Of a stretch of DNA of 40,631 nucleotides, positions 2,553 to 15,432 are shown one piece after another. Position numbers and translations under genes: made by a program. Each line of letters starts with the position of its first letter. The first letter of the stretch is position 1. Source of the DNA: Patescibacteria group bacterium (GTDB lineage: Bacteria; Patescibacteriota; Patescibacteriia; JAGVFQ01); assembly GCA_020057505.1 (NCBI GenBank), contig JAGVFQ010000034.1, forward strand, positions 1-40,631, given 5' to 3'. The notes below the pieces were generated by a model. That model was not told the DNA's origin. It searched no databases and saw nothing but the letters and a program-made list of their open reading frames with translations.

Positions 2553-2581
2553 TTGACAATTTTTGCCACTTATGCTATACT
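2553..2581 (+). promoter_or_regulatory. Sigma70-type promoter TTGACA-N17-TATACT
   Basis: -35 2553-2558, -10 2576-2581, 17-bp spacer. Confidence 0.8.
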
Positions 2582-2720
2582 AAAATATTAGAAAATAGTT
2601 CTTTACAACTATTATTTCCGTCAAAATTGGTTACTTTAAAGCAGAGCAACTAGCTTTGGCGGAAATAATTTTTCCACGAAACAAACAATAGTCCGAAACA
2701 CTCACACGGAGGAATAAGTC

Positions 2721-3365
2721 ATGGCGATTATCACACTGAAAGCGGAAGTTCTGCATCAGAGCAATGGCTGCCCGATCTGCGGCGGCGAGAAGACCAAGCG
2801 GGCGAAGACCTGCGCCAAGTGCCGCAAGGAACACGGTGCGGTCGTCACCGACGCGGTCGACAAGATCGCCGAGACGATCGAAACCGCCAAGGCCGGCCAC
2901 GAGGCGGCTCTGGAAGGCGGCACCAAGCGCGACATCGCGTTCGGGCTGATCCTGGCTCAGGTCAAGATCGACAAGAATGCCGTCTCGCACCTCAGCAACG
3001 GTACCGTCCAGGGTTACTGGGAATGCAAGCGGATGATCGATGGCGGCTTCGTGTCGCTCTTCGTCTTCGGCACGGCGCTCGAACCCGGCAAGGTTTACAC
3101 CGCCATGATCGAACTCAAGACCAAGCAGCCGCGGCCCGGTTGCACCGTCCACTATCTCCGCGCCGAGGTCGTGCCCGACGGCATCCGCTCGGACATGAAG
3201 CTGGCGGTCGTTCCGGCCATCGAAGCCACGAAGCTCAGCTCGAACCTCCCCTCGATGAAGGTGCGGGAAGAGCGGCGCTCCTGCGCCATCGGCTTCCTGC
3301 CGGTCAATCCGCCGCCGAAACCGGAGGAGAAGGCCACCATCGTCGAACAGCCCACGGCCAACTAG
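2721..3365 (+). CDS. Uncharacterised protein with N-terminal zinc ribbon (CPICGG...CAKCRKE), GC-rich gene
   Basis: 214 aa; RBS GGAGG; promoter and terminator present; strong C/G third-position bias. Confidence 0.85.
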   Translation: MAIITLKAEVLHQSNGCPICGGEKTKRAKTCAKCRKEHGAVVTDAVDKIAETIETAKAGHEAALEGGTKRDIAFGLILAQVKIDKNAVSHLSNGTVQGYWECKRMIDGGFVSLFVFGTALEPGKVYTAMIELKTKQPRPGCTVHYLRAEVVPDGIRSDMKLAVVPAIEATKLSSNLPSMKVREERRSCAIGFLPVNPPPKPEEKATIVEQPTAN

Positions 3366-3393
3366 GCCACAACCAACAAGGAGGAATAACAAA

Positions 3394-3434
3394 GGGACCC
3401 AATCGCAATATGCGAGCGGGTCCCTGATTTTTTT
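3394..3434 (+). terminator. Rho-independent terminator
   Basis: GGGACCC(3394-3400)...GGGTCCC(3418-3424) then T-tract. Confidence 0.9.
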
Positions 3435-5220: not shown

Positions 5221-5308
5221 AGTTTTATAATTATATTAATGTTAATTAACGCCGTTCTTTATTTATAGCAGAATTTAACCAAAAAATCCAGAAATAGGAG
5301 GATTAGAT

Positions 5309-10811: not shown

Positions 10812-10840
10812 TTGACAAATTCTGATTATAATCTTAAGAT
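10812..10840 (+). promoter_or_regulatory. Candidate prs promoter TTGACA-N17-TAAGAT
   Basis: -35 10812-10817; -10 10835-10840. Confidence 0.45.
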
Positions 10841-10869
10841 ACATTAATTAGTTCTTTGAAAGAAAAGGT

Positions 10870-10922: not shown

Positions 10923-11912
10923 ATGGACGGACAAGCAAAGCTAGGATTGGTTACCGGCACTTCAAATGTCGGTTTTGCTAAGGCGGTAGCAAAAGAATTG
11001 GGTATCGGAGTTACTCTACATGGGGTAGCTAATCGTTTTTCCGATGGAGAAATAAAAGTGCAGTTGCCGGATAATATCCGGGGCGCCGATGTTTTTATCA
11101 TCCAATCGATTCAGCCACCAGGCGACAACCTGCTCGAGCTCTTAATTATGATCGACGCGGCCAAGCGCGCTTCCGCCGGCCGAGTGACGGCCGTCATCCC
11201 TTACTTTGGTTATGCTCGTCAAGACAGGAAGGATAAGCCCAGGACGCCAATTACTGCCAAGCTCATCGCCGACTTAATCGTTACCGCTGGTGCTGACCGC
11301 GTCTTATTCGTTGACCTGCATACCGATACTATCGAAGGCTTTTTCTCGGCAAGAGACATCAAGGTTGATAAGGTCTTAGGTATCGAAGAAGTCTTTAGGT
11401 ACGCTTTGCGGTACTTAGGGACCATGGGTATCAACCTGCAGGATCTGGTATTGGGAGCGCCGGATGTGGGAGCTACGGCCTTGATTAAGAAATTAACCGA
11501 AGGCAAAATCAATTTACGCATGGTCATCATCGACAAAAGGCGTCCCAAACCGAATGAGTCGGAGGTGACGAACGTCATCGGCGACGTAGAAGGCGCGACG
11601 GTCCTATTCCTCGACGATATGGTCGATACCGCCGGAACCATAACCAACGCCGCGGTGGCTTTAAAAGAAAAAGGAGCAAAACAGATTTTTGCCGCGGCAA
11701 CGCACCCCGTACTTTCGGGGCCGGCTATTGAGCGCCTACAGAAATCGCCTATCGAGAAGTTGTTTGTAAGCGACACTTTCCCGCTTTCGGCTGAAAAACA
11801 GATTGAAAAAATCGAGGTGATTTCCCTGGCCAAATTAGTCGCCGATGCCATTTTCCGCACTCATCATAATGAATCCATCAGCGCTCTTTTCCAAAAACCG
11901 ATCCAGCTCTAA
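10923..11912 (+). CDS. prs: Ribose-phosphate pyrophosphokinase
   Basis: FSDGEIKVQ, PYFGYARQDRK, VDLHTDTIEGFF, FLDDMVDTAGTI motifs; start MDGQAK after GAGAGGGAG. Confidence 0.96.
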   Translation: MDGQAKLGLVTGTSNVGFAKAVAKELGIGVTLHGVANRFSDGEIKVQLPDNIRGADVFIIQSIQPPGDNLLELLIMIDAAKRASAGRVTAVIPYFGYARQDRKDKPRTPITAKLIADLIVTAGADRVLFVDLHTDTIEGFFSARDIKVDKVLGIEEVFRYALRYLGTMGINLQDLVLGAPDVGATALIKKLTEGKINLRMVIIDKRRPKPNESEVTNVIGDVEGATVLFLDDMVDTAGTITNAAVALKEKGAKQIFAAATHPVLSGPAIERLQKSPIEKLFVSDTFPLSAEKQIEKIEVISLAKLVADAIFRTHHNESISALFQKPIQL

Positions 11913-11937
11913 CAAAACTGGAGGAGGATCCAAACCT

Positions 11938-11974
11938 AAAAACTGTCCGGCATTGACCGAACAGTTTTTTTATT
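11938..11974 (+). terminator. Rho-independent terminator after prs
   Basis: AAACTGTCCGGCATTGACCGAACAGTTTTTTT. Confidence 0.85.
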
Positions 11975-14741: not shown

Positions 14742-14760
14742 GCCAGTATTATATACTGGC
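14742..14760. promoter_or_regulatory. Candidate palindromic operator GCCAGTAT-TAT-ATACTGGC
   Basis: Perfect 8-bp arms over the likely -10 region of the plus-strand promoter (TTGACA at 14721-14726). Confidence 0.45.
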
Positions 14761-14781
14761 TCTTTAAAGTAAATCTCCTAC

Positions 14782-14892: not shown

Positions 14893-15346
14893 ATGAAAAC
14901 GCTAAAAGGAGTCTTATTGTTTCTACTTTTAGTTGCCGCTCTAGGGGGAAGCGGGTATGCCGTACGGCAACAAGACAACGAAATAGAAGCCCGTTGCCAG
15001 GCAAAGATCCTAGCTCAGGTAGTCAAAACTAATAAGGCAAAAGGAGTGCGGCCGCCAGCAACGCCGACTAGCCTTACCGCGACAGCCAACAGAACCATTA
15101 ACTCCGGATATAGCGAAATCTATGTTCGGTGGGATCCATTGCTTGCTGAATATCGCTGGCTACAAACTCTGTCGAGGAGTTGACGAGACTCACTATGATG
15201 ACTGCTTAGTAATCGGCTACACCAACAATTCCTACACATTCACCGGGATGATGTATGGCAAAACTTATTACTTCATTCTTCAAAGCTTCGATGCCGACGG
15301 AAATTTCAGCGCGATCGCCGGTCCGGTGAGTGAAAAAGCTCCGTGA
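14893..15346 (+). pseudogene. Secreted single-FN3-domain protein, interrupted by a +1 frameshift
   Basis: ORF 14893-15183 (signal peptide, FN3 start to IYVRWDPLLA) continues in the next frame as NIAGYKLCRGVDETHYDDC...GMMYGKTYYFILQSFDADGNFSAIAGPVSEKAP. Confidence 0.75.
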
Positions 15347-15375
15347 TCAAACACGCCTATAGGAGGATTCAATCC

Positions 15376-15432
15376 AGTTCCAAAATTTTCTTTCCAACGC
15401 GGAAGAATCTCTTGGGGCTTTTTTATTTCACA
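15376..15432 (+). terminator. Rho-independent terminator
   Basis: AGTTCCAA...TTCTTTCCaacgcGGAAGAA...TTGGGGCTTTTTTA. Confidence 0.6.

Follow-up and report, generated by a model that had tools for sequence, protein, structure and literature searches.

Why should a strong Shine-Dalgarno (SD)-like motif stand just behind a stop codon and in front of a transcription terminator? The question is raised by a stretch of 40,631 nucleotides (hereafter the window), which is contig 52 of a 1.01-Mb, 66-contig assembly of a Patescibacteria group bacterium (GCA_020057505.1), and in which the initial annotation had noted AGGAGG shortly past the stop of four plus-strand genes or relics, each time followed by a terminator. 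All four motifs were confirmed at the positions claimed by reading the sequence, and a stable GC hairpin and then a T-run, the mark of an intrinsic terminator, was found by folding after each of them (-7 to -27 kcal/mol), the FN3 and purF hairpins being the weaker ones. The features of the four units, all on the plus strand, are as follows.

2553..2581, plus strand: sigma70-type promoter of the 2721 unit, TTGACA-17-TATACT (11/12 matches)
2598..2608, plus strand: boxA-like element GTTCTTTACAA in the 2721 leader (GYTCTTT is enriched in the gene class)
2612..2669, plus strand: leader hairpin of the 2721 unit (region 2553-2638 has a homologue, 71% over 86 nt, that leads an acquired lipoprotein-like gene elsewhere in the genome)
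2708..2712, plus strand: 5' SD of the 2721 gene, GGAGG (sequence)
2721..3365, plus strand: 2721 coding sequence, 214 aa, unknown function, GC 0.64, GC3 0.87 (TAG at 3363-3365)
3378..3384, plus strand: post-stop SD of the 2721 unit, AAGGAGG (dG with the genome's own anti-SD, -11.2 kcal/mol)
3393..3434, plus strand: intrinsic terminator of the 2721 unit (sequence, fold)
10812..10840, plus strand: prs promoter, TTGACA-17-TAAGAT
10851..10860, plus strand: boxA-like element GTTCTTTGAA in the prs leader
10923..11912, plus strand: prs, ribose-phosphate pyrophosphokinase (TAA at 11910-11912; Pfam Pribosyltran_N, 3e-44)
11920..11927, plus strand: post-stop SD of prs, GGAGGAGG (sequence, fold)
11938..11971, plus strand: intrinsic terminator of prs (fold)
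14759..14769, plus strand: boxA-like element GCTCTTTAAAG in the leader of the FN3 gene
14893..15346, plus strand: FN3-like gene, frame broken near 15150-15180 (TGA at 15344-15346)
15361..15366, plus strand: post-stop SD of the FN3 unit, AGGAGG (sequence)
15375..15426, plus strand: terminator of the FN3 unit, imperfect hairpin and T-run (fold)
25391..25549, plus strand: purF remnant, C-terminal ~50 residues (TAA at 25547-25549; E 4e-9 to amidophosphoribosyltransferase 6lbp)
25553..25558, plus strand: post-stop SD of the purF remnant, AGGAGG (predicted fully unpaired)
25563..25595, plus strand: weak terminator of the purF remnant (fold)

The frameshift in the FN3-like gene is either genuine decay or an assembly error. 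The purF remnant is divergent from serS and still keeps its post-stop SD and weak terminator. The remaining plus-strand intergenic AGGAGG motifs of the window, at 5296 and 20790, stand 5-9 nt ahead of an ATG as ordinary SDs, and a search for known RNA families in the window returned one tRNA only. Since the total of AGGAGG in the window is unremarkable (14 versus 10.1 +/- 3.6), it is position that matters and not number.

The wider survey used a blind sample of 40 stretches (521 kb, 462 genes) from the same genome with the window excluded; genes were called on the sampled stretches with a simple codon-usage caller, and terminators were located with a home-made finder, which missed large-loop terminators (e.g., those of prs and the 2721 gene), so that the counts are conservative. 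Gene ends with no same-strand start within 60 nt were taken as isolated. A mixed set, which includes the window and loci fetched for carrying the motif, served for the positional profile, the 5-mer ranking and one of the boxA counts. All counts come from the sampled stretches and from genome-wide pattern searches, the contigs tested belong to one assembly, and the p-values relied on are those of the blind set unless stated otherwise. GGAGG or AGGAG was present within 28 nt past the stop in 13/43 isolated terminator ends of the blind set, compared to 1.5 in dinucleotide shuffles (Poisson p about 9e-9), while isolated ends lacking a terminator carried it in only 9/291. The non-randomness that the initial annotation had suspected is thus borne out, the frequency exceeding the composition-matched expectation. 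In the mixed set, the excess was confined to the first 20 nt past the stop (9 versus 0.47 expected at 0-10 nt, 6 versus 0.53 at 10-20 nt, nothing further out), and when all 5-mers were ranked over the 22 nt that precede terminator hairpins, AGGAG came out on top (13 versus 3.0). A genome-wide pattern search yielded about 16 clear units in which stop, AGGAGG, spacer, hairpin and T-run follow one another.

The usual order of such a unit is promoter, boxA-like element, leader (sometimes a long hairpin), SD, gene, stop, 0-20 nt, AGGAGG, spacer, hairpin and T-run, the spacer between AGGAGG and hairpin being typically 8-14 nt long and A/C-rich. The 3' end of the genome's own 16S rRNA reads GGATCACCTCCTTTCT, a canonical anti-SD, and for all post-stop motifs tested the computed pairing with it amounts to -10 to -18 kcal/mol; the folds leave the rear SD largely unpaired or in weak pairs. 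A properly spaced start codon, which the initial annotation had found wanting behind the motif, occurs in 2/15 units of the mixed set against 4.3 expected. The ends of the highly expressed housekeeping genes rplL, rpsO and atpE in the sample lack a post-stop SD, which is therefore no general need.

The genes that carry the motif form a recognizable, non-random set: they are GC-rich, patchily distributed, mostly monocistronic and often boxA-led. In the blind set, the post-stop motif was found in 10/31 genes with GC3 of at least 0.55 and in 12/303 genes below 0.55 (p=3e-6); a strong 5' SD was also commoner in the GC3-rich genes (15/28 versus 38/468 for the rest, window included). Carriers that can be named are prs, the purF remnant, a PurC-PurE fusion, the OMP decarboxylase operon and DAHP synthase, and further ones encode a CofD-like protein, a GHL15 hydrolase, a ParB-like protein, lipoprotein-like products and orphans. 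Of 379 genomes from the phylum, two others encode relatives of the PurC-PurE fusion (L047:17944-19248, minus strand), which are ~50% identical to it; a candidate purE at L047:19449 was rejected and identified as an aminotransferase fragment. A SAM riboswitch (RF00162; L027:6931-7115, minus strand) precedes a post-stop-SD gene for a 56-aa cysteine-rich protein. A different 3' UTR motif, GGNCCTTGGNCAAC, is common to two unrelated GC3-rich genes (L021:5078-5881 and L009:12586-13263, both minus strand), where it stands before similar terminators.

The 57 nearest genomes available for comparison are related at class level only. In same-class genomes, the motif occurred at 4/75 terminator ends (1.7 expected), which differs from the 13/43 found here (p=4e-4), so that the feature is close to lineage-specific; prs orthologues in the class are mostly without it (AGGAG in 2/29). 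A raw count of AGGAGG-N-T6 in 56 same-class genomes gave no excess over a reversed-pattern control, a count that is uninformative without a hairpin filter. The carrier genes are patchy in their distribution, with prs present in 29/57 genomes, DAHP synthase in 22/286 and the 2721 gene in 2/381. A single, weak homologue of the 2721 gene turned up when 380 other same-class genomes were searched, and a search for relatives in viral contigs, phage records and named genomes returned none; an extended string, AGGAGGAATAACAAAG, is widespread in viral contigs, from which nothing is concluded. For DAHP synthase, identity reaches 60-67% with many proteins of Deltaproteobacteria, Nitrospinales and Dadabacteria but only ~45-55% with its better same-class homologues. 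Being closest to the deltaproteobacterial proteins (66% identity), it was most likely acquired, and the same is suggested for the other carrier genes. GGAGG lies within 35 nt past the stop in 4/36 donor-type DAHP synthase genes, and none of these four has the SD-hairpin arrangement. Since donor-type copies mostly lack the post-stop SD, it did not arrive with that gene, and carry-over from the donor was rejected for DAHP synthase only.

The front of these units is also distinctive. The boxA consensus GYTCTTTAANA precedes rRNA genes, Nus-factor genes and a few others (PMC5725501), and leaders of the gene class carry a putative boxA (NusB/S10) element that matches a similar consensus; NusB is encoded in the genome, and its own 16S rRNA leader contains ATTCTTTACAA, close to the element ahead of gene 2721. 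GYTCTTT was found in 12/42 leaders of the class and in 11/266 others (p=4e-6, mixed set). In single-gene units of the blind set, boxA and post-stop SD co-occurred (two-by-two table with rows 5, 9 and 9, 184; p=9e-4). Separately, a ~116-nt hairpin leader (about -55 to -61 kcal/mol) was seen ahead of different lipoprotein-like genes in copies that are 96-97% identical:

L032:3-160: hairpin-leader copy
L025:97-212: hairpin-leader copy
L012:12161-12276, minus strand: hairpin-leader copy

Contig 64 ends on one side in a fourth copy that is similar (L459), and the 2721 leader, with its promoter, boxA-like element and hairpin, is 71% identical to this family over 86 nt. A ~96-nt repeat ending in CAATTTCGG stands at six contig ends (C2, C5, C10, C18, C64 and C65; L009, L012, L017, L025, L459 and L312), in one orientation throughout, and several copies directly adjoin different GC-rich SD-led genes; a second repeat is common to eight contig ends. 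These repeats probably reflect a multi-copy element at which the assembly breaks; what was seen is the repeats and not the element as such.

The post-stop element itself is well supported, and it points to an undescribed 3'-end signal whose function is putative. The reading that we prefer, tentatively and at somewhat short of an even chance, is that AGGAGG has been selected in the 3' UTR of stand-alone transcription units as a place where the anti-SD can dock without initiation; the docking mechanism, its consequence and the selection are what we infer. A stand-alone unit consists of its own promoter, often a boxA-like leader, a 5' SD, one or two GC-rich and patchily distributed genes, the post-stop SD and the terminator. 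The site, 0-20 nt past the stop, would bind the anti-SD end of 16S rRNA without initiation: after termination, the 30S subunit, a non-recycled 70S ribosome or a free 30S subunit would dock on the SD within the single-stranded stretch that links stop and hairpin, where it would be parked and kept from drifting into AT-rich downstream sequence, and where it may shield the linker and the 3' end from nucleases. In E. coli, post-termination 70S ribosomes diffuse into 3' UTRs after RRF depletion (PMC7538156), and an intrinsic terminator is repressed when a ribosome stands closer than about 27 nt to the hairpin (PMC4824070). RRF is encoded in the present genome. It speaks against docking that a 30S subunit docked there could also hinder folding of the terminator, that prs orthologues in the class mostly lack the motif, and that the housekeeping ends named above are without it. 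A broader proposal, possible but doubtful, is that this lineage of small-genome bacteria fits acquired single genes with a standard frame, a promoter and boxA-like leader in front and an anti-SD docking site and terminator behind. The rear SD would then truly serve to park ribosomes in the 3' UTR, and what becomes of post-termination ribosomes, or of the 3' end of the mRNA, would depend on it.

The initial annotation had offered several roles without a choice among them; ribosome docking is the one preferred here, a remnant of a deleted gene has a lesser chance and is a poor fit with the tight, recurrent geometry, and initiation of hidden peptides is disfavored. The remnant is the main rival, and we regard it as unlikely while taking it seriously: the motif would be the SD of the next gene in an operon of the donor or acceptor locus, a gene lost from its start codon onwards, with SD and terminator left. 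Such an origin would agree with the resemblance of the post-stop SDs to normal SDs with A-rich spacers, with the similar contexts of the internal (AAGGAGAGAAACCC-ATG) and terminal (AAGGAGAAACGAC) SDs in the OMP decarboxylase-OPRT operon, with the decay of the purF and FN3 copies themselves, and with the unit at L024:6437, where an SD, 7 nt, GTG and a 15-codon frame lie ahead of the terminator. However, it needs about 16 independent losses, all ending between SD and start codon with a hairpin 8-14 nt behind, and the 8-18 nt spacers are too short for any coding remnant; the nearest homologues of the acquired DAHP synthase, moreover, are mostly without a post-stop SD. A model with flanking direct repeats around the ORF, left by insertion, was rejected (permutation p=0.26).

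The other explanations fare worse. One is spacing or purine filler: a terminator would have to keep about 20-30 nt away from the stop, lest the terminating ribosome block the hairpin, a purine-rich, unstructured linker would be favored, and AGGAGG would be incidental. This is improbable; the stop-to-hairpin distances of the SD set are mostly 15-33 nt, near the 27-nt E. coli limit (PMC4824070), and the spacers are A/C-rich, but terminators without SD in the same genome often lie 0-16 nt from the stop, so that spacing is not enforced, composition-keeping shuffles give only 1.5 expected, and the excess is specific to the G-rich 5-mer rather than to purine runs in general. We consider it very improbable that the motif serves a GGA-recognizing regulator such as CsrA, or a C-rich small RNA: GGA motifs do occur within AGGAGGA, yet no PF02599 match was obtained in the genome by a search that found CsrA in E. 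coli, B. subtilis and T. maritima, and CCUCC/CUCCU is not enriched in the leaders of the units (1/15 versus 11%), by which pairing of a leader anti-SD with the rear SD was rejected as well. Start sites of small unannotated peptides are a slimmer prospect still, given that start codons behind the SD are not enriched and that most frames hit the hairpin at once; two units nevertheless have a possible start at SD spacing, the GTG at L024 and an ATG inside the hairpin at C10:5393. Least probable of all is chance or a composition artefact, with which the AGGAGG total of the window would agree but which both the blind sample of this genome and the controls from its class reject.

No description of the arrangement of stop, SD and hairpin was found in the open literature searched, although this does not prove it new. 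Should the rear SD have a function, ribosomes would find in bacterial 3' UTRs a binding signal that neither initiates nor couples translation, and mutation of one hexamer would be enough to test the fate of ribosomes past the stop at an operon end. Should it be a remnant, it would still show in what way transcription units for acquired genes are put together in this lineage, and either way it is a warning against reading every AGGAGG as an initiation site.

Several known systems come close to this arrangement. Intrinsic (Rho-independent) terminators share the GC hairpin and T-run, while an SD in the 5' linker is absent from their usual description. Like boxA leaders of the rRNA/suhB type (PMC5725501), many of the units have GYTCTTT shortly past the promoter; the difference is that the putative boxA stands here ahead of a group of acquired single genes. 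An SD for translational coupling (termination-reinitiation) also offers a strong anti-SD match within about 20 nt past the stop, but here the span of about 4-12 nt behind the SD shows no enrichment of start codons (2/15 versus 4.3), and a terminator follows instead of a downstream same-strand gene, the set having been defined so. STAB-SD sequences sit in the 5' UTR and act on a 5' exonuclease. They are known from Bacillus 5' UTRs (e.g., those of cry genes) as non-initiating SDs at which 30S binding is thought to stabilize the mRNA (PMC4113751). With them the post-stop sites share strong anti-SD complementarity (dG -10 to -18) without start-codon enrichment; the sites described here differ in lying at the 3' end, 0-20 nt past the stop and beside the terminator.
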